Assembly (NCBI GenBank): GCA_020349965.1
Contig: CP070705.1
Span: 1,340,778-1,388,987 of the forward strand
From: Caldifarciminota bacterium
GTDB taxonomy: Bacteria; Hydrothermota; Tepidihabitantia; SM23-42
DNA length: 48,210 nt
Direction: 5' to 3'
Shown here: one piece after another, positions 25,489 through 43,481 of the stretch
Layout: the number at the start of each line of letters is the position of its first letter
Numbering within the stretch: position 1 is the stretch's first letter
The notes under the pieces: model-generated
What the model was told of the DNA's origin: nothing
Database searches by the model: none
The model's input: the letters and a program-made list of their open reading frames with translations, nothing else
Position numbers and translations under genes: made by a program

Positions 25489-27309
25489 ATGAAAAAGATA
25501 CTCATTCTATGCCTATTGTTGACGGCTGTAGTATACAGCAGCCAACGCACTGTTGTGGTTGAGGAATTCACAGCCACGGCTTGACCATACTGTCCTGGTA
25601 CGGCAAGAGGTCTTGCCGAAATATATCCACGGGCATACGATACACTGACGGTCATTTCGTATCATATTTGGTCCAGTGATCCTTTCAACACACCAGAAGC
25701 TGAGGCGCGTGAAGCCTACTACAATGTGACCGGAACACCCACGACATGGTTCGACGGTACGATCTCGGAAGTGGGTGGTCTCAACGCGGGTACCATGTAT
25801 CCGTTTTTCCGGCATCACGTCACAACGCGTGCAGCCGTTGATAGTCCATTGGAAATCACCCTTGCCTGCGATTACGATTCAACAACGAACGAGGGTAGTG
25901 TTGAGGCAACGGTAACGAATACGAGTGGTAGCGCTGTCAGTGGCAACATACACTTCGTCCTGGTGGAAGATGATATTCCCTACAACTGGAGCGGCGGCAG
26001 TGAGCTCGATCAAGTCATGCGCGATATGATCCCCGATGCAAATGGTCAAGCAGTTACAATACCTGCTTCAGATACTATTATACGAACGAGGGACTTTACC
26101 GTCGACGCAGCCTGGAATGAACAGAATTGTCGCATAATTGTTTTTGTCCAGGCAACAAACCGTTCGATATATCAGGGCGCAGAAGTATCCATCCTACCCG
26201 AATCTCACATGGTATACTACGGAATGACAGTCACAGAGCTTACCGGCAATGCCAACGGTTACGGAGAACCAGGGGAAGAGATCGAGGTCACGGCCTATGC
26301 CAAGAATATGGGAAGCAGCGTCTACACGCTTCCGGCTACGGTCGAATGCACTGATCCGCATATCACCGTCTTGTCTTCTATTGTCGATACCTTCGAAATC
26401 CAACCGGGCGATGTCGATGACGTGATAACCTGGGCGTTTGATATCAGTGCGTCTTGTCCTGACCCGCACCTTGCAGAATTCAATCTCACCTTCGGCGATG
26501 GCAATGAATCTCCTGTCCCCTTCCTCGTTACGACACGCTCCGGCTTTGCTGACGACATGGAATCCGGAGTTGGTGAATGGACCCACTCCGGCATCAATGA
26601 TAACTGGCATCTAACAGAGCACAAGAGTAGCACGCCGACGCATTCGTGGTATTGTGGCCTTGAAAATCTCTGGTACTACACCAATCAAAATGATGCCTCA
26701 CTCGTGTCGCCGTATTTTATTGCATCGCCGGAGAGTACACTCAACTTTTACCATCAATACGATCTGGAAGTAGGCTGGGATTATTCATACGTAGAGATCG
26801 ACAACGGTTCTGGATGGTGGCGCACGTTCGACGAGTACAATGGAAACCAAGCCACGTGGATCGGGGAATCGTACCCGCTCAGTGAATACAGTGGACAAAC
26901 AGTCCGCCTGCGTTTCAGATTTGTCAGCGATTACAGCGAATATGAGGAAGGATGGTATATAGATGACGTCCTTGTCCCGATGCTGGGTGTACAGGAATCG
27001 GGTACGCCCGAGAACCTGAGAGCGGTATCCCTGAATGTCTCTCCGAATCCATTCACGAAACAAACACAAATACGATACACGATTCAAGATGCAGGAGACA
27101 TGATACGAGAACCGAAGATGAATATCTACGATGCCACAGGCAGATTGGTGAAGTCCTTCGACCTTGAATCCTCGATCACAGATCGTGCATCGTCGGTCAT
27201 CTGGGATGGTACAGATCAGTTGGACCGAAAATTGCCGGGCGGTGTGTATTTCATAACGCTGCATAATTCCGACAGCAAGATCGTGAAGAAAGCGATTCTT
27301 CTTAAATAG
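25489..27309 (+). CDS. secreted selenoprotein: thioredoxin-fold/Omp28-like, MAM-like domain and C-terminal sorting domain, UGA = Sec at residue 32
   Basis: 606 residues when TGA at 25582-25584 is read as Sec. After a signal peptide (1-~18) comes V-E-E-F-T-A-T-A-U-P-Y-C-P-G, a thioredoxin-like redox motif in which the first Cys of CxxC is Sec32 and the second is Cys35. The fold continues to T-G-T-P-T-T-W-F-D-G, the cis-proline region typical of Omp28/thioredoxin relatives. Next come beta-sandwich segments, an immunoglobulin/MAM-like region (D-D-M-E-S-G, about 354-505) and a C-terminal sorting-type domain (S-P-N-P-F ... L-P-G-G-V-Y-F, about 514-606). AGGGGG lies 4 nt before ATG. A SECIS-like hairpin follows the TGA by 16 nt. 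The reading frame is open on both sides and selABCD genes are nearby, so stop or pseudogene is unlikely. Confidence 0.87.
25601..25618 (+). promoter_or_regulatory. bacterial-SECIS-like hairpin for the secreted selenoprotein
   Basis: CGGCAAG pairs with CTTGCCG around the 4-nt loop AGGT. It begins 16 nt after the UGA. The GG-U apical loop matches the SelB-contact feature of the E. coli fdhF element. Confidence 0.75.
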
Positions 27310-27405: not shown

Positions 27406-28440
27406 ATGATCGAGAACAAGAAAAAAGGCATACTCGCCACCGTCAAATGCGCGGGCTGAGCTTCTAAACTTTCTGCCGCGCAGTTAGCGCAGGCACTGGC
27501 TTATTTGCCACCGGTTGAGGACCCTAACCTGCTGGTCGGAACCAATACAGCGGACGACGCGGGCGTCTACCGTCTGAACGACGATCTGGCATTAGTAAAA
27601 ACGATCGACATCCTCACACCGGTCGTCGAGGACGCGTACACCTTCGGAATGATCGCGGCGGCAAATTGCATATCAGATATTTATGCCATGGGTGGTGATC
27701 CACAACTCGCGCTCAACATCGTCGGTTATCCTGGCATTGGTGATGCCAAAAACCTCGGTGAAATACTGAAAGGCGGCAGTGACAAGGCAAAGGAAGCTGG
27801 TGTTACCACAATCGGCGGCCACACATTTGCCTCACCTGAAGTGATGTACGGTCTGTCAGTTCTGGGCTATATCCATCCCAAGAAGATCATCACAAACGCA
27901 GGTGTCAAACCGGATGATGTGATCATCCTGACCAAACCGGTTGGTGTTGGAACGATAATCCAGGCAATGTTGTTAGGTAAGGATGAAGGAATAGATATGA
28001 CACCGGTTATTTCTGCCATGACAACATTGAATAAAGATGCATCACTGGCGATGCGGAATGCCGAGGCACATGGAGCCACCGACGTCACCGGCTATGGTCT
28101 TATCGGCCACCTCGTTGAGATGAGCGAAGCGAGCAGAGTAGGCATAGAGATCTCACTACAGAAAATTCCAACCCACAAGGGGGCTGTGGAAATCCTGGAC
28201 CAAGGTATCTTTGAGCCGGGTATTACAATGAATCTAAATTCCTTTAATAACCGGGTTGACAAGGGCAGCAGCGATTCGAATCTTGTCAATCTGATATTTG
28301 GCTCGGAAACTTCAGGCGGTCTCATTATTACATTGCCTGAAGAACGGACCGAAGTATTCAAGAAAAACTACGGCAAGGATTTTACCATCATCGGCCGCGC
28401 AACGGCCGAGAATCCCGGTCGCGTGACACTAACTCCCTAA
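27406..28440 (+). CDS. selD: selenide, water dikinase (selenophosphate synthase), itself a selenoprotein
   Basis: 344 residues with TGA 27457-27459 read as Sec18 in K-C-A-G-U-A-S-K. This is the catalytic position occupied by Cys17 in E. coli SelD and by Sec in many selenoprotein SelDs. The downstream body has D-D-A-G-V-Y-R-L (metal-binding Asp), D-I-L-T-P-V-V-E-D, I-S-D-I-Y-A-M-G-G and G-G-H-T-F. It makes selenophosphate from selenide and ATP. Reading the frame from after the TGA would remove the catalytic region. A hairpin with a bulged A follows the UGA by 14 nt. The mRNA seems leaderless. Requirement of Sec for selenophosphate supply creates a feedback loop. Confidence 0.96.
27474..27495 (+). 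promoter_or_regulatory. SECIS-like hairpin in selD
   Basis: TGCC-GCGC pairs with GCGC-(A bulge)-GGCA around the loop AGTTA. It starts 14 nt after the UGA. The loop lacks the usual GG, so the fold should be tested. Confidence 0.6.
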
Positions 28441-28665: not shown

Positions 28666-28693
28666 TTGACATCTCCGTAACATATGTTATATT
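28666..28693 (+). promoter_or_regulatory. promoter of the small DUF4242-like selenoprotein
   Basis: TTGACA (28666-28671), a 16-nt spacer and TATATT (28688-28693). AGGAGG at 28699-28704 precedes the ATG by 5 nt. The stretch from 28441 to here holds no gene that I can see. Confidence 0.7.
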
Positions 28694-28709
28694 TTATCAG
28701 GAGGTGGTT

Positions 28710-28949
28710 ATGCCAAAATATCTCATCACGCTTCCTAAGATGCCCAAGGACGAGATTATTTCGTCGTGAAAGGCTGTCATCACTGCCTCTGGAGGAGGCA
28801 GTCTATGCATGGACAAAGCATATATCGATGAAGAAAACAGCCAAGCAATATGCTGCTGGGACGCGCCGGATAGGAAAAGCCTTGAAGAGTTATTTACTAA
28901 CGCGCAAGTCCGCGTGGAATCAATAAGGAGCGTTGTCGAATACAAATAG
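28710..28949 (+). CDS. small selenoprotein, DUF4242-like, UGA = Sec at residue 20
   Basis: 79 residues with TGA 28767-28769 read as Sec20 (I-I-S-S-U-K-A-V). The second half reads A-Y-I-D-E-E-N-S-Q-A-I-C-C-W-D-A-P-D-R-K-S-L-E-E-L and ends V-R-V-E-S-I-R-S-V-V-E-Y-K. This matches the DUF4242 pattern (acidic strand, C-x-x-D/E-A-P helix, final strand) of SCO4226-type nickel-binding ferredoxin-fold proteins. Cys33, Cys48 and Cys49 could be partners of Sec20. Sec falls where relatives have a His or other ligand, so a metal or redox role is possible but inferred. It has a strong SD and its own promoter and terminator. A perfect 8-bp hairpin follows the UGA by 12 nt. No standard ORF caller would report it. 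Confidence 0.85.
28782..28802 (+). promoter_or_regulatory. SECIS-like hairpin in the DUF4242-like selenoprotein gene
   Basis: ACTGCCTC pairs perfectly with GAGGCAGT around the loop TGGAG. It begins 12 nt after the UGA, and the apical GG is present. Confidence 0.85.
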
Positions 28950-28971: not shown

Positions 28972-28997
28972 GGGGCGGCGTATGCTGCCCCTTTTTG
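28972..28997 (+). terminator. rho-independent terminator after the small selenoprotein gene
   Basis: GGGGCGGC pairs with GCTGCCCC (one G-U) around GTAT, followed by TTTTT. Confidence 0.85.
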
Positions 28998-29042: not shown

Positions 29043-29068
29043 GGTATTCTGGTAATTACCAGAATACC
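29043..29068. promoter_or_regulatory. perfect 26-nt palindrome, candidate operator
   Basis: GGTATTCTGGTAA is followed directly by its exact reverse complement. The core CTGGTAATTACCAG resembles operators of FadR-type GntR regulators (TGGT-N-ACCA). It lies 50 nt upstream of the next -35 box and has no T-run, so it is more likely a protein-binding site than a terminator. Confidence 0.6.
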
Positions 29069-29451: not shown

Positions 29452-29763
29452 ATGGGAAATAAATGGGATCCGGTAGTAGGTACTAATGAATACAAGAAAA
29501 ATCTGAGAAGAATAAGAAAAATAGCAGAAGAGAATGGCTACGCAATCAATTCCGATCAAAAGCGGCCCAGAAAAATAGTCGGCCTCATGACGATGAACAA
29601 GATCGAATTCGGCAAGTATTACTGCCCCTGCAAGCAAAGCCACCTGCTGGATATACAGAAAGACGTTCCATGCCCATGCCCTGAGATGAAGGATGAAATT
29701 GTCAAGGACAATCATTGCTTCTGCAAACTTTTTTACCAAAAAAACGCGGGAGGGAGATCATGA
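29452..29763 (+). CDS. ferredoxin-thioredoxin reductase catalytic-subunit-like protein
   Basis: 103 residues. Three Cys-pair motifs, C-P-C (58-60), C-P-C (74-76) and C-F-C (89-91), match the FTR catalytic chain (C-P-C / C-P-C / C-H-C), which holds a [4Fe-4S] cluster next to an active-site disulfide. The spacings differ slightly from the plant-type enzyme. It should pass ferredoxin electrons to a protein disulfide. The stop codon overlaps the start of the next gene (ATGA), so its partner may be the double-cubane reductase system rather than a thioredoxin. Confidence 0.85.
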   Translation: MGNKWDPVVGTNEYKKNLRRIRKIAEENGYAINSDQKRPRKIVGLMTMNKIEFGKYYCPCKQSHLLDIQKDVPCPCPEMKDEIVKDNHCFCKLFYQKNAGGRS

Positions 29764-31016
29764 CTAATCATGAGCAAATGTGGGAGGAGTTGGGTCTCGA
29801 TGTCGATTTGCATAAGGAGTTAATAAAATCGATCGACCATACGTTCAATCAAACAGTCGGCGCACAGAATGAGCGCCCAGCTTCGATGGCATATTTCGAT
29901 CGTGTATTACACGAATCACATGGAGGTAGAGTCGCTGAACTCATCGAAGCCAGAAAGAACGGCAAGAAATTCGTAGGGACGTTCTGCATTTACGTACCTG
30001 ATGAGATCGCTATGGCTGCCGACGCCATTCCTGTTGCCCTCTGCGGCGGAACGCAGTTCTCAATACCGTACGGCGAGAAAATGTTTCCGAGGAACATATG
30101 TCCGCTTGTAAAATCAACCTTCGGCATGGCGCTGTCGAAGACCTGCCCTTATGGTCCGATCAAGGACCTCGGCGTAGGTGAAACTACTTGCGACGCAAAG
30201 AAGAAAGCATGGGATGTAGTGAACTTTTACGTTATGGAGGTTCCTCAGAAAAAGAGCGATCTTGACCTTAAGTTATGGCGTCAGGCCGTTGCGGATTTCA
30301 AAAGCAGGATCGAAGAACTCACGGGAATGAAGGTGACTGCGCACAGGCTTACGCAAACGATAGATATAATGAATGACAAAAGACGGGCGCTGCAGAAATT
30401 GAACGAGTTCCGGAAATTAGACCCGCCGCCGATCAGCGGTCTCGACGCGCTCGTCATAATGCAGGCGGCATTCAATGACGAACCCACGCGTTTTACCGAA
30501 CATCTCACAGAACTCAATAATGAGCTCGACGACCGTGTGAAAAAGGGCATCTCCCCGTTCAAGAAGGGTACCAAGCGTATCATGATCTCCGGTTGTCCCT
30601 CTGTTATGGGAAATTGGAAAGTGCATTCGCTCATAGAAAAATCAGATGCTGCCATTGTGGTCGATGAAACGTGCACTGGAACACGCTATTTCAGCAATTT
30701 GGTTGAAGACGGCGTCGCTGATCTTGAGAAACAGCTCGATGCGCTGGCCGAGCGGTACATGAAGATAGACTGTGCCTGCTTTTCGCCTAACAACGAACGT
30801 ATGGAGACGATCGAGAAAATCGTCGATGATCATACTGTCGACGGTGTGGTGCAATACATTCTGCAATATTGTCACGGTTATAATGTCGAGGCAATCCGGG
30901 TAGCACGTATTTTGAACAAAAGAAAAATACCCAATATCAAGTTAGAAACAGATTATAGCGAGGAAGATATGGGACAACTCCGCACACGCATCGACGCCTT
31001 CCTCGAGCAATTATAG
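29760..31016 (+). CDS. double-cubane-cluster-containing anaerobic reductase (HgdB/BcrC family)
   Basis: 418 residues from the ATG at 29760, with GGGAGG-type SD. The 2-hydroxyacyl-CoA-dehydratase D-component fold shows the Cys pattern of the double-cubane subfamily: G-T-F-C-I-Y-V-P-D-E, A-L-C-G-G-T, R-N-I-C-P-L-V-K-S, T-C-P-Y-G-P-I, and G-E-T-T-C-D-A-K-K-K. These proteins use electrons boosted by an ATP-driven activase to reduce difficult substrates. The natural substrate is unknown (acetylene is reduced by a characterised relative). The activase gene follows 12 nt after the stop. Confidence 0.88.
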   Translation: MTNHEQMWEELGLDVDLHKELIKSIDHTFNQTVGAQNERPASMAYFDRVLHESHGGRVAELIEARKNGKKFVGTFCIYVPDEIAMAADAIPVALCGGTQFSIPYGEKMFPRNICPLVKSTFGMALSKTCPYGPIKDLGVGETTCDAKKKAWDVVNFYVMEVPQKKSDLDLKLWRQAVADFKSRIEELTGMKVTAHRLTQTIDIMNDKRRALQKLNEFRKLDPPPISGLDALVIMQAAFNDEPTRFTEHLTELNNELDDRVKKGISPFKKGTKRIMISGCPSVMGNWKVHSLIEKSDAAIVVDETCTGTRYFSNLVEDGVADLEKQLDALAERYMKIDCACFSPNNERMETIEKIVDDHTVDGVVQYILQYCHGYNVEAIRVARILNKRKIPNIKLETDYSEEDMGQLRTRIDAFLEQL

Positions 31017-31028
31017 TAAGGAGGAACA

Positions 31029-31820
31029 ATAATAACGGCAGGCATTGACATCGGATCGCGTACGATAAAGAAAGTCCTGATGGATGACAGTGGCGTCATA
31101 GATTATGTAATAACCGACACTGGTGTCGATCCCCTGTCCAATGTGTTGAAAATGCTTAAGCATCAAGAGCATGATAACATTGTGGCAACAGGATACGGGC
31201 GTTACCTGGCTCAGATGCATCTTCAGTGCCCGATCATCACAGAGATCAAAGCCTATGCCATAGGTGCGAATTTCCTCTTTCCGGATTGTCGTACGGTACT
31301 TGATATCGGCGGACAAGACAGCAAGATCATTCGCGTCAGAAACGGCAAGGTGGAAGATTTCGAGATGAACGATAAATGCGCTGCAGGAACGGGCAAATTC
31401 CTTGAGGTCATGGCGACAACACTCGGCTTCACTCTTGATGAATTCGGCAATATCTCCTCACGGGCAGACCAGGCCGTGCCGATCAGTTCAATGTGCACAG
31501 TGTTTGCTGAATCGGAGATCGTCTCACTGATATCAAGCGGTGCCGACCGAAAAAACATCTCCCTTGGTCTGCACCAATCGATCCTCAATCGTATCATCGC
31601 TTTGATGGGCAGGACAGGCTTTGAGGAACCGATAGTTTTCGCAGGAGGAGTGGCAAAGAACGAATGTATTGCCAAGCTTCTGAGAAGCAAACTGAAAATG
31701 AAAATCTTGTTGCCCCCAGAGCCCCAAATTGTCGGTGCCATTGGATCAGCATTGGTGGCAAAGCAAGAAATCACAAGTGATTATACAGGCAGAAAAAATC
31801 AAAAACCGAAAGGAGTGTAA
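31029..31820 (+). CDS. ATP-dependent activase/reductase of the double-cubane protein (BcrAD/BadFG/HgdC family), ATA start
   Basis: 263 residues from ATA 31029. The ASKHA phosphate-1 motif G-I-D-I-G-S-R-T-I-K-K immediately follows. The cluster-binding part has D-I-G-G-Q-D-S-K and N-D-K-C-A-A-G-T-G-K-F, and the second Cys is in S-S-M-C-T-V-F-A-E-S. The homodimer holds one [4Fe-4S] cluster. An in-frame TAA at 31017-31019 and the absence of ATG/GTG/TTG before the motif leave ATA as the only reasonable start. AAGGAGG sits 4 nt before it. Starting at the first ATG (31080) would delete the nucleotide-binding loop. Confidence 0.93.
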   Translation: MITAGIDIGSRTIKKVLMDDSGVIDYVITDTGVDPLSNVLKMLKHQEHDNIVATGYGRYLAQMHLQCPIITEIKAYAIGANFLFPDCRTVLDIGGQDSKIIRVRNGKVEDFEMNDKCAAGTGKFLEVMATTLGFTLDEFGNISSRADQAVPISSMCTVFAESEIVSLISSGADRKNISLGLHQSILNRIIALMGRTGFEEPIVFAGGVAKNECIAKLLRSKLKMKILLPPEPQIVGAIGSALVAKQEITSDYTGRKNQKPKGV

Positions 31821-31821
31821 T

Positions 31822-32613
31822 ATGACGTACATGAAGGACTTCACAATAAAGGACGTGCAGGACGTGTATGATGGTCCGGGAGGACTATTATGGGAAGCAG
31901 TAATGGGTGAACAAATCCACTCCGGCGGTCCGGAAGCGACCGACGCACTTGCGCAAAAGGTCGGACTCAAAAAAGGTATGATCGTATGTGACATTTGCAG
32001 TGCTCTCGGTGCGCCAGCACGCCACCTCGCTTCCAAATACGGTGTGACGGTCAAGGGTGTCGATGCTACCAAGACAATGCTTGAAAAAGCACGCCAGCGC
32101 ACAAAGGAAGCGAAACTTGAAGACTTCATAGAATACTATGAAGGCAATGCCATGGATCTTCCGTTCAAGAAAGATACCTTTGACGTGGTTTGGGGGCAGG
32201 AAGCATGGTGTTATGTCACAGACAAGAACCGGCTCATCCAGGAAGCACGCCGCGTGCTCAAACCGGGAGGCAAGATCGCATTTACCGACTGGATAATCAC
32301 TGGCGACATACCGGAGAAAGAACTCGACCCGTTACTCGAAACCATGGCCTTTCCGTACATGGAATCCTTCCAAGGCTATCAGGGCCTCTTAAAACAGAAT
32401 GGTTTCAAACTCATTGAAGCGCTCGACCAGACCGAAGAGTATGCCAAATGCTTCGATGAGTACTATGAGAAAGTGCATGTGGATCTGAAACCTACGATCC
32501 TCGATAATTTCGGGAAAGACCTCTTCGATTTTGCGTCAAATCTGGTGACAATCTGGCAAAAGGCCGCGCACGAACACAAAGTCGGCCGAGGTCTTTTTAT
32601 CGGGCAAAAATAA
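31822..32613 (+). CDS. class I SAM-dependent methyltransferase
   Basis: 263 residues. AAAGGAG precedes the ATG at 31822. Motif I is C-D-I-C-S-A-L-G-A-P-A-R-H-L-A, and post-I acidic residue G-V-D-A-T. Motif IV is D-V-V-W-G-Q-E-A-W, and R-V-L-K-P-G-G-K-I-A-F-T-D-W is present. The arrangement resembles glycine/sarcosine or dimethylglycine N-methyltransferases, which would supply or use methylamines. The substrate is not established. It is in the same operon as the double-cubane pair, with only one nt after the activase stop. Confidence 0.82.
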   Translation: MTYMKDFTIKDVQDVYDGPGGLLWEAVMGEQIHSGGPEATDALAQKVGLKKGMIVCDICSALGAPARHLASKYGVTVKGVDATKTMLEKARQRTKEAKLEDFIEYYEGNAMDLPFKKDTFDVVWGQEAWCYVTDKNRLIQEARRVLKPGGKIAFTDWIITGDIPEKELDPLLETMAFPYMESFQGYQGLLKQNGFKLIEALDQTEEYAKCFDEYYEKVHVDLKPTILDNFGKDLFDFASNLVTIWQKAAHEHKVGRGLFIGQK

Positions 32614-32745: not shown

Positions 32746-33375
32746 TTGATTGAATCAATAAGAAAAGCAGTCATTGATATGGATGATGAGAAAGCGATCG
32801 AGCTCGTATCCATTGCCCTGAAGGAGGAAATCGATCCGGTCGACATACTGGAAAAAGGGTTGATCTCAGGAATGCAGGAGGTTGCAGCGCTATTCGCACG
32901 CAAGGAATACTACGTGCCGGAAGTGCTATTGTGTTCCGAAGCATTCTACGCCGGATTTGATATCATAAAACCTCTCATCGGAAAGTCATCCCAACGATCA
33001 AAGGCAAAAGTCGTTCTTGGTGTAGTAGAAGGCGACATACACGACATTGGCAAGAATATCGTTAAGGTCATGATGGAAGCAGAAGGCTACGAAGTTATCG
33101 ACCTCGGCAGGGACGTGCCAATTGCGAAATTCATCGAGGCCGCAGAAACAGAAAAACCCGACATACTTGCGATATCGAGCCTCATGACGACGACTATGAC
33201 ACATATGATTAGCATCATCAGTGAACTCGAGCACCGGAAGCTGCGTGATACCGTAAAAGTTATCGTCGGCGGGGCACCGGTGAACGAAGAATTCGCGGCA
33301 AGGATCAAAGCCGACGGTTATAGCCCTGACGGACCATCGGCAGTGAAGTTACTGGAAAAACTCATCGGTGGATAA
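32746..33375 (+). CDS. methyltransferase cognate corrinoid protein (MtbC/MttC-like)
   Basis: 209 residues. A four-helix cap (about 1-85) is followed by the B12-binding Rossmann domain with G-D-I-H-D-I-G-K-N-I-V (DxHxxG, His lower ligand), S-S-L-M-T-T-T-M and V-I-V-G-G-A-P-V-N-E-E-F. It shuttles methyl groups between a methyltransferase pair. TTG start, with GGAGG 4 nt upstream. It overlaps the next gene by 8 nt and opens a six-gene operon. Confidence 0.94.
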   Translation: MIESIRKAVIDMDDEKAIELVSIALKEEIDPVDILEKGLISGMQEVAALFARKEYYVPEVLLCSEAFYAGFDIIKPLIGKSSQRSKAKVVLGVVEGDIHDIGKNIVKVMMEAEGYEVIDLGRDVPIAKFIEAAETEKPDILAISSLMTTTMTHMISIISELEHRKLRDTVKVIVGGAPVNEEFAARIKADGYSPDGPSAVKLLEKLIGG

Positions 33376-34300
33376 AATCTCAGAGGTCATAAACCATAGA
33401 AGACATTTCGCTGTATTTCCCATGGTCTGTGCTGATCACGGCGCACTACTCATGAATATGACGCTCACGGAAGTTGCCGAAGATGGAGAGAGAATCGCCC
33501 GCGCATTGCGATACTGTTATGACCTCTATGACTATGACATGGTACTCGTTTTTACGGATCCCTATGTCGAAGCGCAAGCATTGGGATGTCCGGTGACACT
33601 TGACCCTTACCCCACCCTCCGCGGACCGGCGTCCGACCATTCTGTGGACCGGACGGAGGAAATCATAAAGGCCGCAGAAATCTTGAAATCCGAAATCCCG
33701 GTTCCAGTGTTCGTTTCGATAAAAGGTCCGTTTACACTTGCGGCGTTCCTTGGCGGCGTTGAGCATTATCTTAAAGCGACGATGAAAAACGAAGCCGAAG
33801 CCACTCACATACTCCAGGAGGCGTTGCACCATCAACTCGTTTACCTGCGGAAACTATTGTCGCTGGGCGTAGACATAATGATCGGTGACCCGCTCGCATC
33901 TTCGAGCGTCATATCACCCAGAGCCTTCTGCAAATATGCATTACCAGGACTGCAGACCCTGGTCGATATGGCAAAAGCAGGAAATGTGCGCGTCGGCGTG
34001 CATATCTGTGGTGAGGTCGCCCCGATATTGGAACATCTCGATAACCTCAGCGTGGATATACTGAGCATTGAAAACATCGACGTCCAGACAGAAACCGTGA
34101 GAATGGGAGGCGTGGGGACCGATACGATATTGAACGGAGACGTTGAGCGCATAAAATCCGAGGTGAATACTGCGCTCGGGAATAGACCAATTATCCTGTC
34201 CACAGCATGTGATGTTCCGCCACAAACAGATCCGACCAGCATCAAAACCATGCTCAACACCGCCCGCAAAATTGACCCGGACATTGGAGTACAAGTATGA
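33368..34300 (+). CDS. uroporphyrinogen-decarboxylase-family corrinoid methyltransferase (MtaA/MtbA-like), copy 1
   Basis: 310 residues, GTG start inside the end of the corrinoid gene. It is a TIM barrel of the UroD/MtaA family. The likely zinc ligands are His and Cys in V-H-I-C-G-E-V and a Cys in S-T-A-C-D-V-P near the C-terminus, as in zinc-thiolate methyltransferases. The conserved D-P-L-A-S-S-S-V-I-S-P is shared with copy 2. It should move a methyl group between corrinoid and an unknown thiol or other acceptor. True UroD function is unlikely because of the zinc motif and operon. Confidence 0.9.
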   Translation: MDKISEVINHRRHFAVFPMVCADHGALLMNMTLTEVAEDGERIARALRYCYDLYDYDMVLVFTDPYVEAQALGCPVTLDPYPTLRGPASDHSVDRTEEIIKAAEILKSEIPVPVFVSIKGPFTLAAFLGGVEHYLKATMKNEAEATHILQEALHHQLVYLRKLLSLGVDIMIGDPLASSSVISPRAFCKYALPGLQTLVDMAKAGNVRVGVHICGEVAPILEHLDNLSVDILSIENIDVQTETVRMGGVGTDTILNGDVERIKSEVNTALGNRPIILSTACDVPPQTDPTSIKTMLNTARKIDPDIGVQV

Positions 34301-35283
34301 ATTTGATCGGCTACGCATGTTCCTACATCCCGGTCGAAATACTCTCCGCCACTGGATTGAATCCCTACCGACTTCTCCATGGCGACATTGACCTTTCGAA
34401 AAAGGGAGAACGATTCGTACGGGTAGATGCCTGCCCCATGGTCAAATCAAATCTCGCTTATGTCATCGAGAATCAAGAGAAATTCGCTGCGCTGATCGGT
34501 TCCACCGGCTGCGACATGTCCCGTAGAATGTTCGATATCCTCAGCGAACATACTAAAATCCCGGTTTATGTCGTTAATGTCCCAAGAACGGACAACCCCG
34601 CGATCTACAACGATGAAATTGACTGGTTCGTGAAACAACTAGAACACTTCACACACAGAAAGTTCTTCGACGAAACGGTCAAAAACGAGATCAGTAAATG
34701 GGAAGCGATGCGGACAAAATTGCGGTGCACTGACAAAAAGCGAGCAGACCACCCATCACTAATATCGACCGCCGATTTCCACAAATTAATGACCAGCTAT
34801 CATAAGGGCGCTCTCACCGATGAGATAATCCAAAACCAGGACCCAACGGACAAACCACGAGTATACTTGCTGGGCAGTGCGATCACTTACGAAGCCAATC
34901 ATATCCTGCAATTGATAGAAGAAAAACTCCGCATCGTTGGCGATTTCAATTGCGGGCTTTCCAGGCCTCTTGGTATCAGCATTCAAGAACAGAGTATCGA
35001 CGGCATAAAGAAGGCATATTACGATCAACCGCCGTGCGTCTACAAGAGACCTCACCAGAGGTATTACGACTTCATAAGAGGGGAAACTATCAGGTTAGGT
35101 TGCGTCGGAATCATTGCGTGGACGCTCGATTACTGCGATGTCCATGAGTTTGAACTTCAGAAAATCGAAAATGTGTTCAACCTCCCCGTATTGAGGATAC
35201 GGAGTGATTTCTCCTTTCAGGGCCTTAGCCAGTTGAAGACAAGGATAGAGGCATTCGCGGAGATGCTATGTACCAGGATCTGA
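34297..35283 (+). CDS. 2-hydroxyacyl-CoA-dehydratase/benzoyl-CoA-reductase family subunit (HgdB-like), smaller
   Basis: 328 residues. Start ATG overlaps the preceding stop (ATGA). Cys residues in Y-A-C-S-Y-I-P-V-E-I, D-A-C-P-M-V-K-S and S-T-G-C-D-M-S-R-R fit the [4Fe-4S] ligands of HgdB/BcrC subunits. The C-terminal part, including W-T-L-D-Y-C-D-V-H, is typical. It probably pairs with the next, larger subunit. No CoA ligase, CoA transferase or acyl-CoA gene is in the operon, so a classical acyl-CoA substrate is doubtful. Confidence 0.88.
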   Translation: MNLIGYACSYIPVEILSATGLNPYRLLHGDIDLSKKGERFVRVDACPMVKSNLAYVIENQEKFAALIGSTGCDMSRRMFDILSEHTKIPVYVVNVPRTDNPAIYNDEIDWFVKQLEHFTHRKFFDETVKNEISKWEAMRTKLRCTDKKRADHPSLISTADFHKLMTSYHKGALTDEIIQNQDPTDKPRVYLLGSAITYEANHILQLIEEKLRIVGDFNCGLSRPLGISIQEQSIDGIKKAYYDQPPCVYKRPHQRYYDFIRGETIRLGCVGIIAWTLDYCDVHEFELQKIENVFNLPVLRIRSDFSFQGLSQLKTRIEAFAEMLCTRI

Positions 35284-36659
35284 CCCCTGAGAAGATTGGG
35301 CTGAAAGAATGGAGTAAACAATTCCGCATGGTTGGTGATTCAGAAATAAAAGAATTCAAGTACTATAATAACGACGAATGGGGCATCTACCTCTCACCGC
35401 CGGCAACGTTCATGGTCTACGGAACCAGACAATTGAAGAAGTTAAAATTCGATAATTCGCTGGCAGCGCTCAGGCTCTGGGGATTCACCTTCAATGAGTC
35501 TGAAAGGCTTTTCCGGGCGCGCCAGAGCGGCAAACGTATTATTGCAGCCATGGGCGATCTCGGCACAGTACCTGTCATTGCCATGGCTTTTCCTGATTGT
35601 ATACCTTTCTACCCGGATTGCACGTGGTGGACGCCATTCTTCAACGAATCAACTGTGCTGCTCGACAAGGCGAGTGAGCTCGGCACACCTGAAGCAAGCT
35701 GTTTTGTCCGGTCAACACTTGCCGCCTTCCACAAGATGGCTTATTTCCCGAAGCCCGATATCATGTTCGCATCGACCGGTGCATCATGTGATGACTACTC
35801 GTGTATCATGCAGATGGCCGAAGAAATGGGTTACGAACTGAACTGGCTTGAAATCCCTTTCCGCAGGCAACATCGATCATTTCACATGTCTGAAGAACAT
35901 GCAGTGACAGACAGCGGATTCAAATACCCGAAACGCTTTGAAACATACTTGGTCAATGAGTACAAAAGGGTATGGCGAAAAATGGAGGCACTTACCGGCA
36001 CTGGTGATCTCAAGAAACTAAATGCAAGCATCGAGAAGAACAACAGAGTTCGCAGGTTGGTGAATGATATAAAAGACCTAACTCAAACCGCGGACGTCGC
36101 ACCATTCCCCGCTCTTGAGATGATGGTCATAGAATTCGGTAACCTCTACGGCTACGCCGATATCGATGAATGGTTGGATATCCTTAAGATGATCAAGGAC
36201 ACGGTCGCCGACCGCGTCGAGAAGGGAATCGGTATACTCCCTTCGGATGCGGTACCTCTTGCGTGGGTCACACCCACCGCAGACCCGTTGCTACTAAATA
36301 TTGTCGAAGATCTTGGAGGGCGTGTCGTGGCAACCGAGTACGTCATCAATCAGGCACTCACGATAATTGAAGAAGATATAGAACCATTCCAAGCCCTTGC
36401 CAGGTCTTTTATGAATGCCTCACTGATTGGTTCTACAGAAGAACGGGTCCGTCAGATTGCTGGAAGCGTTGACTCAGGTAAGATCGCAGGAGTCATCATT
36501 ACAAATATGCTGGGTTGTTCCCATTGCGCAATGGAAACAAGGTTAATAGAAGAGAAATTGAAAAATGTGCCTGTGCTCGCGATCGACGTCCCCGCTCCCT
36601 TGGGCATAACCGAACAACTGAAGACAAGAATCACCGCTTTCATCGAGATGCTGAGATGA
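35268..36659 (+). CDS. 2-hydroxyacyl-CoA-dehydratase family subunit, larger
   Basis: 463 residues, starting within the previous gene (16-nt overlap). It shares the HgdA/B fold: Cys in F-P-D-C-I-P-F, then S-C-D-D-Y-S-C, and N-M-L-G-C-S-H-C-A-M near the end. Paired with the 328-residue subunit, it would form an electron-accepting component activated by the downstream ATPase. Function inferred only from the family and neighbours. Confidence 0.85.
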   Translation: MYQDLTPEKIGLKEWSKQFRMVGDSEIKEFKYYNNDEWGIYLSPPATFMVYGTRQLKKLKFDNSLAALRLWGFTFNESERLFRARQSGKRIIAAMGDLGTVPVIAMAFPDCIPFYPDCTWWTPFFNESTVLLDKASELGTPEASCFVRSTLAAFHKMAYFPKPDIMFASTGASCDDYSCIMQMAEEMGYELNWLEIPFRRQHRSFHMSEEHAVTDSGFKYPKRFETYLVNEYKRVWRKMEALTGTGDLKKLNASIEKNNRVRRLVNDIKDLTQTADVAPFPALEMMVIEFGNLYGYADIDEWLDILKMIKDTVADRVEKGIGILPSDAVPLAWVTPTADPLLLNIVEDLGGRVVATEYVINQALTIIEEDIEPFQALARSFMNASLIGSTEERVRQIAGSVDSGKIAGVIITNMLGCSHCAMETRLIEEKLKNVPVLAIDVPAPLGITEQLKTRITAFIEMLR

Positions 36660-37687
36660 ACGATATTCTGACCTCCCGCGAAAGATTTGGGTTATTGGTA
36701 ATCGACGAGAAACCTGATCGCTGCAATATCATGCCGTTAATAACCTCCCACGCAGCAACCGTCAAAGGCATGAAGGTAAGAGATTACTACACAAACGGTG
36801 AGAACATGGCACGCGCGCAGATCGCTGCGATCGATAAATACGAACACGACGCGATCTCGATCTTCTCTGAAGTTGGTATCATTGCCGAAGCCATGGGTTC
36901 GGAATTCGAATACCCGGAGAATGATCTTCCGATACAAAGAACACCTGCCCTGGAAAAAAAGGATATCGAAGAGATCAAAATACCTTCGCCCACTTGTGAC
37001 GCACGACTCCCCGTCTATCTCGAGGCAATTGAATATGCGTACGATGCACTTGGAGACAGAGTTCCCATTCTTACCTACATTCCCGCCCCATTCACAACTG
37101 CAATGATGCTATCCGACCCGAATAAATTCCTCATACAGACGATCAAAGAATCTTCTCGTGTCGAGAGCATCGTCGATAGGTCCCTGGCTGCAGCAATCGA
37201 ACTATGCTACCACGTTATCGATGCCGGCGGCTTGCCCATCATCGTTGACCCGCTCGCATCGTCGAGCGTCGTGAGCCCCAAGACATATAGGCAATACGCA
37301 TTGCCTTCCGAAAGAAAGCTCGTCGATTTTCTACATCGGTACGATCTCGATGTCATCTTACACATTTGCGGTGATACTTCGCCAATACTTGACGTGCTCC
37401 CCCAGACGCACGCCGACCTCATCAGCATCGACCGCGTCAACATGCAGCAGGCAATCGACAAGCTGTCCTCTGCCGTACGGATAATCGGCAACTACGACAC
37501 ATCGAGGCTTGCATTCTCGACCCCGGATGATATAAAAGCAGAAGTACGAAATATGGTGGAAGGAGCATTGCACGCAAAACAAGGGTATATTGCTGCAACT
37601 GGCTGCGAAGTCCCTATCAAGGCACCTGAAGAGAACGTCATGGCATTCGTAGATAGCGTGAAGGAGGTTGGATGGTACTGGGTATAG
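36656..37687 (+). CDS. uroporphyrinogen-decarboxylase-family corrinoid methyltransferase, copy 2
   Basis: 343 residues. ATGA overlap with the previous gene. Zinc-type motif L-H-I-C-G-D-T and C-terminal A-T-G-C-E-V-P are as in copy 1, as is D-P-L-A-S-S-S-V-V-S-P. Two paralogues next to one corrinoid protein suggest one loads the corrinoid and the other unloads it, or that they serve different substrates. Confidence 0.9.
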   Translation: MNDILTSRERFGLLVIDEKPDRCNIMPLITSHAATVKGMKVRDYYTNGENMARAQIAAIDKYEHDAISIFSEVGIIAEAMGSEFEYPENDLPIQRTPALEKKDIEEIKIPSPTCDARLPVYLEAIEYAYDALGDRVPILTYIPAPFTTAMMLSDPNKFLIQTIKESSRVESIVDRSLAAAIELCYHVIDAGGLPIIVDPLASSSVVSPKTYRQYALPSERKLVDFLHRYDLDVILHICGDTSPILDVLPQTHADLISIDRVNMQQAIDKLSSAVRIIGNYDTSRLAFSTPDDIKAEVRNMVEGALHAKQGYIAATGCEVPIKAPEENVMAFVDSVKEVGWYWV

Positions 37688-38394
37688 ATGTTGGTTCGAG
37701 TTACACCAAAGGTGTACTCTTTGATAGCGGTATTAGGCAGAAGGCTGTCGTCAAAACCTCTTTCAAACCGAAACAGGCAATCGAGGAAGCGCAAAACCAA
37801 CTCAAGGGATACGATAGAATAGTCGCCACAGGTTATGGCCGGGAACTGGTTGCTGGTGCCGATAAGACCATCACCGAGATCACCGCTTTCGCGCGGGGTG
37901 CCGGTTATTTTGAACCGTCCGTTAGAACGATCATCGATATCGGCGGACAGGATAGTAAGATAATCAAAGTAAGAGACGGACGAGTGGACCGTTTCATAAT
38001 GAACGATCGGTGCGCTGCAGGGACAGGCAATTTCATCGAGAAGATCGCCCAGGCTCTCGACCTCTCACTGGCCGAGTTCGGTGATCTCGCTGTCAAGGCA
38101 GACCGGGCAGAAACCATCGATTCTCTATGCGTCGTAATGGCAGAGACCGAGATTCTGAGTCTCGTTGGCGAAGGCAAAAGGCTTGAAGATATTGTTGCCG
38201 GAGTGTGCGATGCTCTCGTACGGAGAATTGACGGAATCGGCAGCCAGATCGGGATTGAGAACCCGATCCTATACTGTGGGGGCGCGGCTCTTAACCCCGG
38301 ATTGGTAAAATCAATGGAACGCATATTTGGTAAGATCATGATTCCTGAAGATCCGCAATTTATTGGCGCGGTGGGCGCCGCACTATCACAATGA
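37672..38394 (+). CDS. CoA-dehydratase/BcrAD-type ATPase activase, second copy
   Basis: 240 residues. AAGGAGG lies 4 nt before ATG. G-I-D-V-G-S-S-Y-T-K-G is the ATP phosphate loop, D-I-G-G-Q-D-S-K and N-D-R-C-A-A-G-T-G-N-F hold the bridging [4Fe-4S] Cys, and D-S-L-C-V-V-M-A-E-T the second. It should drive ATP-dependent electron transfer to the HgdB-like pair. It is the last gene of the operon. Confidence 0.93.
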   Translation: MVLGIDVGSSYTKGVLFDSGIRQKAVVKTSFKPKQAIEEAQNQLKGYDRIVATGYGRELVAGADKTITEITAFARGAGYFEPSVRTIIDIGGQDSKIIKVRDGRVDRFIMNDRCAAGTGNFIEKIAQALDLSLAEFGDLAVKADRAETIDSLCVVMAETEILSLVGEGKRLEDIVAGVCDALVRRIDGIGSQIGIENPILYCGGAALNPGLVKSMERIFGKIMIPEDPQFIGAVGAALSQ

Positions 38395-38495: not shown

Positions 38496-39887
38496 GTGAA
38501 AAATAAAGAAATTCTCAGGAACATCCCATCGGTCGATAAGGTCCTTAATTGGAATGAGGTAAAGGAATCACTGGACATCCTTGACCATGCGCATGTAACG
38601 ACGATCGTTCGCGACAATATCGATCTTTTCCGCAAACGTCTGCAGGCCGGCGACGCTCTAACACTCGACGACCTGAAGAAAACCCTTCTGGACGAGATCA
38701 AGGAACTCATCAGCCCCTATTTTCGCTATGCAGTAAACGCATCCGGTATCGTACTACATACTGGACTGGGCCGTGCACCATTCAATCGGCGCATTGCAGA
38801 CATAGTCCACGACGCATCACTGGGCTACTCGCGCCTGCAGATCGACGACGAGGGTAAACGTGCCGACCGCTACAAAAAGATCAGCCGGCTACTCGAGATA
38901 CTGACCGGCGCAGAGGCGGGAATCATCGTTAACAACAATGCTGCGGCCACGATGCTCGTTCTCAATGCAATGGCAAAGGGCAAAGAGGTAGTCGTATCCC
39001 GCGGGCAGTTGATAGAGATCGGCGGAGCGTTCCGTATTCCCGATATCATGGCACAGAGTGGAGCGATCATGCGTGAAGTAGGCACGACCAACCGCACCCA
39101 CTTGAGAGACTATGAGGGCGCGATCAACGAACTCACCGGTGCGCTGCTGCGGGTACACCAGTCCAACTATCGCATCATCGGTTTCACCAAAGAGGTCTCG
39201 CTCGAAGAACTCGTTGCCCTGGGAAAGAAACACAAGATACCGGTCATCGATGATCTCGGCAGTGGCGCCCTAATCGATCTGTCCAAATTCGGATTACCCA
39301 AGGAACCAATGGTACAGGAAAGTATTGCTGCAGGCGCTGATCTCGCCTGCTTCAGTGGCGACAAGCTCATAGGCGGTCCTCAATGCGGCATAATTGTCGG
39401 AAGGAAAAACCACATTGACTCCATACGGAAGAATCCCCTGACCAGGGCTCTAAGATGCGATAAACTCACCAATGCCGTGCTGGAGGCAACCCTCCAGTTA
39501 TTCCTTATGAAAGAAGAATTTTTAGTACAAAATCACAGCGTCTTTCGTATTTTACTTAAACCGTTGGATGAAGTTAAGAAGGCCGCAAATAGATGCGCCC
39601 GCGTCCTCAGAAAGTCCTATGGCAAGGATCTCCAGATTGACGTGAAACCTGACATGAGCGAGGTCGGTGGCGGGTCACTGAGCACAGAGCAGCTACCGAC
39701 GTACGTAGTTACGATAAGATCCAGATCCGTAAACGCCCAGGAACTGGCAAAGGCGCTGCGACGTTACGAAAGACCGATATTCGGAAGGGTTGCCGAAGGT
39801 ACGCTCCTTCTTGATTTTCGCACTGTATTCAAGGACGAGGAAAAGATCATCCTCCAAGCATTCAAGACGATAATGAAAGCAACTTGA
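38496..39887 (+). CDS. selA: L-seryl-tRNA(Sec) selenium transferase
   Basis: 463 residues, full length. An N-terminal helical domain (I-P-S-V-D-K-V-L) binds tRNA-Sec. The PLP domain has N-A-S-G-I-V-L-H-T-G-L-G-R-A-P and the PLP-lysine motif F-S-G-D-K-L-I-G-G-P-Q-C-G. It converts Ser-tRNA-Sec to Sec-tRNA-Sec with selenophosphate from SelD. GTG start. It is followed by selB after 66 nt. Confidence 0.97.
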   Translation: MKNKEILRNIPSVDKVLNWNEVKESLDILDHAHVTTIVRDNIDLFRKRLQAGDALTLDDLKKTLLDEIKELISPYFRYAVNASGIVLHTGLGRAPFNRRIADIVHDASLGYSRLQIDDEGKRADRYKKISRLLEILTGAEAGIIVNNNAAATMLVLNAMAKGKEVVVSRGQLIEIGGAFRIPDIMAQSGAIMREVGTTNRTHLRDYEGAINELTGALLRVHQSNYRIIGFTKEVSLEELVALGKKHKIPVIDDLGSGALIDLSKFGLPKEPMVQESIAAGADLACFSGDKLIGGPQCGIIVGRKNHIDSIRKNPLTRALRCDKLTNAVLEATLQLFLMKEEFLVQNHSVFRILLKPLDEVKKAANRCARVLRKSYGKDLQIDVKPDMSEVGGGSLSTEQLPTYVVTIRSRSVNAQELAKALRRYERPIFGRVAEGTLLLDFRTVFKDEEKIILQAFKTIMKAT

Positions 39888-39953: not shown

Positions 39954-41876
39954 ATGACCAGTGTTTCGAAGAAGCACATCGTGATCGGTACAGCCGGTCA
40001 TATTGACCATGGCAAGAGCGCCTTAGTGAAGGCGCTGACCGGCGTCGATCCTGATCGATTAAAAGAAGAAAAAGAACGAGGCATGACAACCGACCTTGGA
40101 TTCGTCTTCTACAACCCTGATGTGACGATCATTGATGTTCCTGGCCATGAGAAATTCGTACGTCATATGGTTGCTGGCGCTTCTACAATTGATTTTGTAA
40201 TCTTCGTTGTCGCTGCCGACGATGGCGTGATGCCGCAGACATATGAACACCTTGAGATCCTCAAGTTACTGGGAATTCAAAAGGGTCTTGTAGTCATAAC
40301 AAAGAAGGATCTGGTGGAAGAGGAAATGCTCGAGGTGGTCAAAGAGGACGTCAAGACCATCCTACAGAATTCATTTCTGGAAGATGCGCCGATAATGGCC
40401 GTTTCCAATGTCACAAAGGACGGGATAGAGACGCTCAGAAAAAACCTGGATGAACTGATCGCCCAGACCAAACCGAAGACTGATCGCGGTATCTTCCGCA
40501 TGCCCATAGACCGGCGTTTCGTGATAAAGGGATTCGGGACTGTCGTAGCAGGCACCGTACTCTCGGGGAGGGTCGCGGTCGGTGGGACTCTGGAGCTACT
40601 ACCCGAGAAGAAGAGTGTGAAGGTGCGCGGCATCGAAGTCCATAACGAGAAGGTCGAAGATGTCACGACAGGTTTCCGGGCCGCAATCAATCTGGTCGGT
40701 GCCGAAAAGGAAGAGATCGACCGGGGTGACGTTCTTGCACAACCAGGATATTTCGAACCGTCCGAATACCTCAATGCTTCCCTTTACCTCCTCAAGTCGG
40801 CAGGCAAACCGCTCAAGAATTTTACGCGGCTGCGCATCCACGTCGGTACAAGCGAGATATTCGGCCGGGTCGTATTTCTCGATAGGAAGGTTCTGAGCCC
40901 TGGCGAAAAGGCAATGGCGCAATTCAGGCTCGAAGCTCCGGCCGTTTGTGATATAAACGACAATTACGTAATAAGGACTTACTCCCCTCAGATGACGATT
41001 GGCGGCGGCGTCATCATCGAGCCCAAGGCAACCAAAGCAAAGGGATTCGACGAGGATCTGATAAGCCATCTACACCGCATGGAGATCGGTGAACCGATCG
41101 CCATCGTCGAGGAAGATCTACTTTCGAATTTTGATCTTCCACGAAAGATTGAAGAGATCAGCCATGATGCCAATTTGCCGCCTGAGGAAGTGAGGAAGCA
41201 GATCCAGATGCTGACCCAGACCGAAAAAGCTATATGTCTCGATGATAAACGGGGATTGTACTACCACCGTGCAAACCATGACAAACTGCAGCAGAGCATC
41301 CTCGAACAACTGAAGATCTATCACAAAAGCAACCCGACAGGAATCGGTGTTCCGAATCTCGAATTATTGAAGAAGATCAGCCGCGGATTGGACAAGATAC
41401 TCCTCGACAAGACCCTCACCAACATGCAACGGGAAGGAACCGTACGTGTGTCACCGGACGGAAAGATCAGCCTATCCGAACATAAAGTCATTGTCGATGA
41501 TGAATTGGATGCAACGATCAAGAAAATAGAACATCTATTCCTCGATGCGGCATACAAACCACCCGGCTACGAAACAATCCTCGCTCAGAAAATAGAACAA
41601 GAAAGCATAGTCAAGAAAGCATATCGGTACATGCTCGATACTGGCACGCTCGTCAACGTCGGCGAAGGCATAGTGATACACGAAAGGTACATTAAGGAGG
41701 CGCAATCGAAGTTGATCGAACACCTCAAGCAAAATAAGGAAATACGGGTTTCTCAATTCCGCGATCTGTTAGGCGCCAGTCGAAAGTTTGTATTACCTCT
41801 ATTGATATACTTCGATACACGTGGAGTAACGATAAAGCGCGGCGATGTTCGCGTGCTTGGACAAAAATACAAATAA
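39954..41876 (+). CDS. selB: selenocysteine-specific elongation factor
   Basis: 640 residues. The GTPase part has [13 protein letters not shown] (P-loop), D-V-P-G-H-E and T-K-K-D. EF-Tu-like domains 2-3 follow, and the C-terminal ~270 residues are winged-helix repeats that bind SECIS RNA. It delivers Sec-tRNA to UGA codons followed by a SECIS hairpin. Confidence 0.97.
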
Positions 41877-43387: not shown

Positions 43388-43481
43388 TGGCGGAGGCGTG
43401 TAGGAATCGAACCTACCGTCCCCCTTTCGAAGGACATCCGGGTTTGAAGCCCGTCAGGCACACCAGCACCCATCCGCCTCC
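43388..43481 (-). tRNA. selC: tRNA-Sec (anticodon UCA)
   Basis: Minus strand. Acceptor GGAGGCG pairs with CGCCTCC, discriminator G, and encoded CCA. The anticodon loop is CTTCAAA (UCA). The long variable arm begins GTCCTT and pairs with GGGGGAC. The T-arm is GTAGG-TTCGATT-CCTAC. Length is 94 nt including CCA, as expected for bacterial selC. It decodes UGA with SelB. Confidence 0.95.

Follow-up and report, generated by a model that had tools for sequence, protein, structure and literature searches.

The family PF14026 (SCO4226-like), the former DUF4242, has as its characterised member SCO4226 of Streptomyces coelicolor (NF033706, PDB 4oi3/4oi6), a nickel-binding protein with a ferredoxin-like fold. 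Among its ligands, His23 belongs to the site Ni-2 (PMC4186839). A 2026 inventory of prokaryotic selenoproteins counts 119 families, and its Table 1 contains neither PF14026 nor DUF4242 nor SCO4226 (PMC13188914). The use of methylated selenium compounds has been described in the type 1 mlp gene clusters (MGC), which encode corrinoid proteins and UroD-type methyltransferases, in many cases with a dicubane cluster protein and in some with sel genes; they act on methyl-selenium, and one member enzyme transfers methyl groups to selenide (PMC10418091). SdmABC, their Methanococcus counterpart, is required for the use of dimethylselenide (PMC11097638).

Here we analyse a stretch of 48,210 nucleotides (the window) from contig CP070705.1 of a Caldifarciminota bacterium, whose genome of 2.3 Mb is assembled as a single contig and whose nearest named relatives are metagenome-assembled genomes (MAGs) of candidate division WOR-3/Stahlbacteria. 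Between selD and a set of corrinoid and double-cubane genes, the window contains a short gene interrupted by an in-frame TGA. Table 1 compiles the features of this region.

Table 1. Features of the window around the TGA-interrupted gene, numbered from the first nucleotide of the window.
Feature	Position	Strand	Evidence
selD, itself Sec (CAGU, TGA 27457-27459)	27406..28440	+	TIGR00476 320 bits on read-through; hairpin after TGA
Promoter-like site TTGACA-16-TATATT	28666..28693	+	11/12 consensus, TG before second hexamer; consensus match only
Ribosome-binding site AGGAGG	28699..28704	+	Sequence; 5 nt before ATG 28710
Selenoprotein gene, PF14026/SCO4226-like	28710..28949	+	Translation, homologues across TGA, Pfam, predicted fold
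Sec codon TGA (U20)	28767..28769	+	28 aligned sequences: 26 TGA (Sec), 2 TGC (Cys)
Bacterial SECIS hairpin	28782..28802	+	12 nt after TGA; 19-sequence pair count, frozen codons, absent in Cys forms
Intrinsic terminator-like hairpin, then TTTTT	28972..28991	+	Sequence, folding z -3.4
Ferredoxin:thioredoxin reductase beta-chain-like (FTR-beta)	29452..29763	+	PF02943 51 bits; next gene downstream
Double-cubane-cluster anaerobic reductase	29760..31016	+	NF040772 460 bits, cut-off 350
Activase adjoining double-cubane gene	31080..31820	+	TIGR00241 234 bits
SAM methyltransferase, sarcosine/dimethylglycine- and ArsM-like	31819..32613	+	All matches below equivalog cut-offs
Methyltransferase-type corrinoid protein	32746..33375	+	TIGR02370 208 bits, cut-off 215
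MtaA/UroD-type corrinoid methyltransferase 1	33368..34300	+
Two HGD-D (double-cubane-like) proteins	34297..35283, 35268..36659	+
MtaA/UroD-type corrinoid methyltransferase 2	36515..37687	+	Start probably near 36650
Second activase	37672..38394	+	TIGR00241 248 bits
selA	38496..39887	+	TIGR00474 554 bits
selB	39954..41876	+	TIGR00475 353 bits, cut-off 242
selC, tRNA-Sec	43392..43481	-	RF01852 75 bits, cut-off 47

A TGA-interrupted gene beside the selenium genes

The gene has 79 codons, one of them for Sec: from the ATG, 19 codons lead to the TGA, 59 more codons follow in the same frame, and the stop is TAG. A reading of the sequence alone (the sequence-only reading) had listed a promoter, an AGGAGG, the ATG, the 19 codons, the TGA, a hairpin, the 59 codons and a terminator, and all of these elements are found in their places. 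AGGAGG-like sites also lie upstream of almost all homologues of the gene. A gene this short, with a TGA inside it, is likely to be overlooked or cut off early by gene finders. The overlapping open reading frames at 28684-28926 (+) and 28697-28945 (-) were rejected as genes, since the alternative frames gain stops in relatives; the one on the forward strand has no Pfam match.

All four of selA, selB, selC and selD lie within the window. Of the 20 genomes in the phylum that carry the gene, 18 also have SelB; the other two are 66% and 88% complete. TGA serves as an ordinary stop in neighbouring genes (MtaA1, HgdB2, HgdC and selA end in it), so TGA is not recoded genome-wide.

Further observations concern TGA and tRNA-Sec elsewhere in this genome. 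For selD, the plain ORF call misses the first 99 bases and begins at TTG 27505, and the Sec of this protein is at the SelD catalytic site. A second tRNA-Sec-like match (G000:C1:2296971-2297056, reverse strand, L068) scores 50.7 bits, just above the gathering score, and is probably another tRNA. An Omp28-like secreted protein encoded at 25489-27309 (+) has an in-frame TGA at 25582 that would give the motif UPYC (UxxC) and is followed by a hairpin; it is related to the Omp28-related selenoprotein NF045500 (78 bits, cut-off 200), and a Cys homologue carries WCTYC (L075, 3300-5036).

Homologues and selection across the TGA

The sequence-only reading had suggested a search for Cys or Sec homologues aligning across the TGA, and such homologues are numerous. 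We found 25 further homologues, with identities of about 25 to 92%, that have a TGA at the identical ungapped column: 11 from the same family, obtained by protein search, 7 more from the phylum and 7 from Planctomycetota. The Sec forms thus occur in two phyla, in WOR-3/Stahlbacteria-type genomes and in Planctomycetota; the plasmid search returned no homologue. In the ungapped alignment of 28 sequences, codon 20 is TGA in 26 and TGC in 2, with no other codon and never TAA or TAG. The Cys forms come from G117, of the same phylum (L042), and from the Planctomycetia MAG fen_1346 (L033), while G118, a genus-mate of the Cys-bearing G117, has Sec.

In the tree, the two Cys forms make up one clade (100/100) nested in the Sec forms and joined to L035 (98/90), a placement that suggests one Sec-to-Cys change, the protein being short and the tree modest. 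Many of the genomes compared are MAGs, and the Planctomycetia Cys record may conceivably come from a mis-binned contig; its double-cubane module and its codons agree with those of G117.

Within the window's genus, substitutions at the first, second and third codon positions number 46/10/143 before the TGA and 94/40/372 after it, and the part after the TGA has dN of 0.07-0.11 with dS above 1 or saturated. Third positions dominate the changes on both sides, which indicates one protein under selection across the TGA.

The hairpin after the TGA

The hairpin has 9 pairs, 8 of them Watson-Crick and one U-G, around a GGA loop. Its folding energy in the window does not exceed that of dinucleotide shuffles (z about -1), so the evidence from a single sequence is weak and the comparative evidence decides. 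Among 19 Sec sequences, 94% of the hairpin cells are paired and three of the seven pairs have compensatory changes, a covariation signal that is abolished when the pairing partner is slid. The stretch encodes the residues A26-S27-x-G29-S30, and the codons used for two of them are nearly fixed: of the 26 Sec forms, 25 use GCT for Ala26 and 24 use GGA for Gly29, whereas at the other Ala and Gly positions of these genes GCT makes up 27 of 180 codons (15%) and GGA 3 of 38. In the Cys forms the hairpin has been lost, and the two codons are GCG and GGT, respectively, in both. As judged from the aligned codons, this freezing is selection on the RNA, gone when the Sec codon is gone. The switch from Sec to Cys with simultaneous loss of the hairpin amounts to a clean natural experiment.

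These comparisons bear on two other accounts of the TGA. One is that a chance ORF of 19 codons happens to stand before a frame unrelated to it and an accidental hairpin, as might be thought from the unexceptional folding energy and from a Pfam score of the window protein that lies under the cut-off. It is refuted by the recurrence of the same TGA in 26 sequences of two phyla, by the Cys forms, by the purifying selection that a single frame shows before and after the TGA and by the frozen hairpin codons, and we give it practically no weight. The other is that some residue other than Sec, such as Trp, is inserted at the TGA, or that ribosomes simply read through it. Nothing specific speaks for it, apart from an unrelated PF14026 gene (L044, G033, 1501-1728; 67 bits) in which a TGA stands at the usual Trp position (KYLKYUYNE); this TGA was rejected as a Sec codon and may reflect a sequencing error, a pseudogene or another recoding. 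Against such a reading, the homologues without TGA carry Cys in its place rather than Trp, only the TGA forms have the hairpin, the sel genes are present and TGA is a normal stop in the neighbouring genes, which makes it highly improbable. According to this comparative analysis, the UGA at codon 20 very probably encodes selenocysteine (a probability of roughly 0.97), making the product a selenoprotein.

Family, fold and conserved residues

The sequence-only reading had placed the protein in DUF4242. The window protein by itself matches PF14026 with 23.4 bits over residues 36-75, under the cut-off of 28.5 bits, and has no match in the NCBIfam scan, including NF033706 at E 0.1-1. Across the family the assignment holds: PF14026 is the sole Pfam family matched by the 21 members scanned, all of which match it, and 10 Sec forms exceed its cut-off. 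NF033706 weakly matches 17 of these 21 members (best E 9.5e-7). The AlphaFold model, built from 21 sequences (pLDDT 91.6, pTM 0.78), has the order beta-alpha-beta-beta-alpha-beta, and its best match in the PDB is nickel-bound SCO4226 (4oi6; E 2e-4, TM 0.79). It is highly likely that the 79-residue selenoprotein has the PF14026/SCO4226 ferredoxin-like fold.

Profile alignment with SCO4226 needs no gaps but is weak (E 0.44). It places Sec20 on His23, Cys48 on Cys51 and Cys49 on Leu52, and the SCO4226 ligands His23, Asp43, Ser46, Glu74 and His76 correspond to U20, D40, N43, S71 and R73 of the window protein. The earlier suggestion that Sec occupies a possible metal-ligand position thus gains slight support from this alignment, whereas that of nickel binding is not supported: the window protein contains no His at all and has Asn43, Ser71 and Arg73 at the positions of Ser46, Glu74 and His76. 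Seven positions are invariant in the 28 sequences (U/C20, A26, C48, W50, A52, P53 and V75), position 40, the equivalent of Asp43 in the Ni-1 site, is Asp or Asn in all 28, and C49 is present in 22.

C33 and C48-C49 had also been named as residues that might form a selenenyl-sulfide or metal site. C33 is rejected as a redox partner because Cys at this position is confined to the window's genus. The selenoprotein has no UxxC or CxxU motif. In the predicted structure, the first helix carries Sec20 and the third strand the invariant Cys48. Since Cys49 falls on Leu52, a dimer-core residue of SCO4226, the alternation of the strand should turn the side chain of Cys48 to the side of Sec20's helix.

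A metal-binding role, in which Sec20 is a softer ligand in place of SCO4226 His23 and the dimer acts as a sink for nickel or some other soft metal, has to be weighed against these residues. It would agree with the best fold match, with the alignment of Sec20 on a Ni-2 ligand (PMC4186839), with the Asp/Asn at position 40 and with the weak NF033706 matches. However, the window protein lacks His, the other ligand positions have changed as described above and His20 of SCO4226 is replaced by Ile17, the Sec20-His23 alignment is itself weak, and no nickel genes were seen adjoining the selenoprotein gene. We consider this role unlikely, and somewhat favour redox or selenium handling over nickel.

Gene neighbourhood

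The selenoprotein gene follows the Sec-containing selD and is itself followed by the FTR-beta-like gene, the double-cubane reductase, its activase, the SAM methyltransferase, the corrinoid protein, an MtaA-type protein, two HGD-D proteins, a second MtaA-type protein, a second activase, selA, selB and, on the opposite strand, tRNA-Sec. The FTR-beta gene keeps its place in the genus (L012, L021-L024), and three members (L021-L023) retain it together with the methyltransferase, the double-cubane gene and its activase being absent. An order-level relative with Sec (L077) has selD, the selenoprotein gene, the double-cubane gene, activase, a symporter, methyltransferase, corrinoid protein and MtaA. 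In both genomes with Cys, G117 (L075) and the Planctomycetia MAG (L033), the methyltransferase and double-cubane genes come directly after, with an activase. In all, two Sec-bearing and two Cys-bearing lineages have a gene of the selenoprotein family next to double-cubane, methyltransferase and activase genes, and selD is immediately upstream in the window's genus and in L077.

The gene stands apart from the selenium/double-cubane module in 11 other WOR-3-type genomes examined, some of them on short contigs, and in all seven Sec-bearing Planctomycetota, so its function cannot depend on the cluster neighbourhood. Within the class, the methyltransferase occurs in 18 of 20 carriers against 20 of 45 other genomes and the double-cubane protein in 12 of 20 against 7 of 45 (p about 5e-4 for each, kinship ignored); when the SelB-bearing genomes of the class are taken alone, the association is much weaker (p 0.05 and 0.03, respectively, kinship again ignored).

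Two observations concern the surroundings of the gene. The 26-bp perfect palindrome GGTATTCTGGTAATTACCAGAATACC lies at 29043-29068, between the selenoprotein and FTR-beta genes; it is exact in L021 and L024 and degenerate in L023, and is a possible operator. The genome has a single copy of the palindrome, which leaves no basis for a regulon. In two distant genomes, a flavodoxin/WrbA-like gene is found on the other strand near a solo selenoprotein gene (L031 6514-6987, L034 3665-4138), an arrangement that is not general.

Proposed function

For a selenol protein encoded between selD and a cluster resembling those for methyl-selenide, the simplest part is selenium or thiol redox handling, and a selenol/thiol redox or selenium-handling role is the most likely one. 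SelB and tRNA-Sec, directed by the hairpin that follows, would read the UGA at codon 20 as selenocysteine. The protein is probably a dimer, as SCO4226 is, and the selenolate of Sec20 would be its working group: it would bond reversibly, in the simplest case through Se-S to Cys48, while reducing or carrying a thiol-, selenium- or soft-metal-bound substrate. A thiol system would re-reduce it, in the window's genus perhaps the adjoining FTR-beta-like protein. Encoded in the window between selD and a cluster like those for methyl-selenide demethylation and double-cubane proteins, the protein may have its place in the cell's selenium economy. As the gene is often solo, its product is likelier to have a selenol redox or ligand function of a general kind, on which the cluster also draws, than a role fixed to the cluster. 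We regard this explanation as a whole, with Sec20 as the working group, the Cys48 bond and the selenium economy, as reasonably probable.

A narrower proposal would make the protein a dedicated selenium carrier: Sec20 would bind selenide, or selenium released from methylated selenium compounds, in the form of a perselenide and deliver it to SelD. The position of selD immediately upstream in the window's genus and in L077 and the resemblance of the cluster to methyl-selenide clusters would fit it, and a 2026 review deems the physiological selenium donor of SelD an open matter (PMC13188914). But most other genomes have the gene at a distance from selD, the Cys forms (L033, L075) have double-cubane genes and no selD beside them, and many SelB-bearing genomes of the class are without the gene, so that we find this proposal quite unlikely. 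A related and still more doubtful version sees in the protein a missing selenium carrier or sensor, whose Sec would receive the selenium that the corrinoid/double-cubane cluster releases from methylated selenium and then supply SelD with it; if it is true, a selenoprotein feeds selenium into selenoprotein synthesis. The location of the gene by selD and the double-cubane/corrinoid genes gives a direct handle on the role of the double-cubane protein in selenium metabolism and on how selenium reaches SelD.

Comparison with known families and clusters

Our literature search, whose scope left most subscription papers outside, found no paper that names DUF4242 and selenoprotein together and none that joins selenoprotein with WOR-3, and NCBIfam has no selenoprotein model for a PF14026-type protein. 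Its absence from these sources and from the 119-family table makes the PF14026 selenoprotein, as far as they show, a new selenoprotein family on a known fold. It would add a family to the roughly 119 of prokaryotes (PMC13188914) and place Sec on the ferredoxin-like fold known from nickel-binding SCO4226.

Like SCO4226 (82 residues, against 79 here), the selenoprotein has the ferredoxin-like fold, a Cys at the equivalent positions C51/C48 and an Asp at D43/D40; unlike it, Sec or Cys replaces His23, the other His ligands are gone, and the gene has an in-frame TGA and a SECIS, the identity in the structural alignment being about 11%. Known methyltransferase-domain selenoproteins (for example ArsM/DUF2284 and the UXPK-star double selenoproteins) likewise combine Sec chemistry with SAM methyltransferases of the same broad family, but they are fusions with other folds and motifs, whereas here the selenoprotein is a separate gene. 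The double-cubane-cluster anaerobic reductase, which passes the curated cut-off of NF040772, is a neighbour and not the selenoprotein itself.

As in the type 1 mlp clusters and SdmABC, the window brings together a corrinoid protein, UroD/MtaA-type methyltransferases, a double-cubane protein and sel genes; of the type 1 set, which comprises methyltransferases of the Mlp2 and Mlp3 lineages, a corrinoid protein and a RACE protein, it has two MtaA-type proteins and a corrinoid protein, the likeness being one of gene content. No RACE protein was found among the window genes examined, and at its place, unlike in the type 1 clusters, the window has an acyl-CoA-dehydratase-type activase and the HGD-D pair. 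These adjoin the corrinoid/MtaA genes at 34297-38394 and may be a different corrinoid re-activation system. To the content of the type 1 mlp-like clusters, the window adds the SAM methyltransferase, FTR-beta and the PF14026 selenoprotein.
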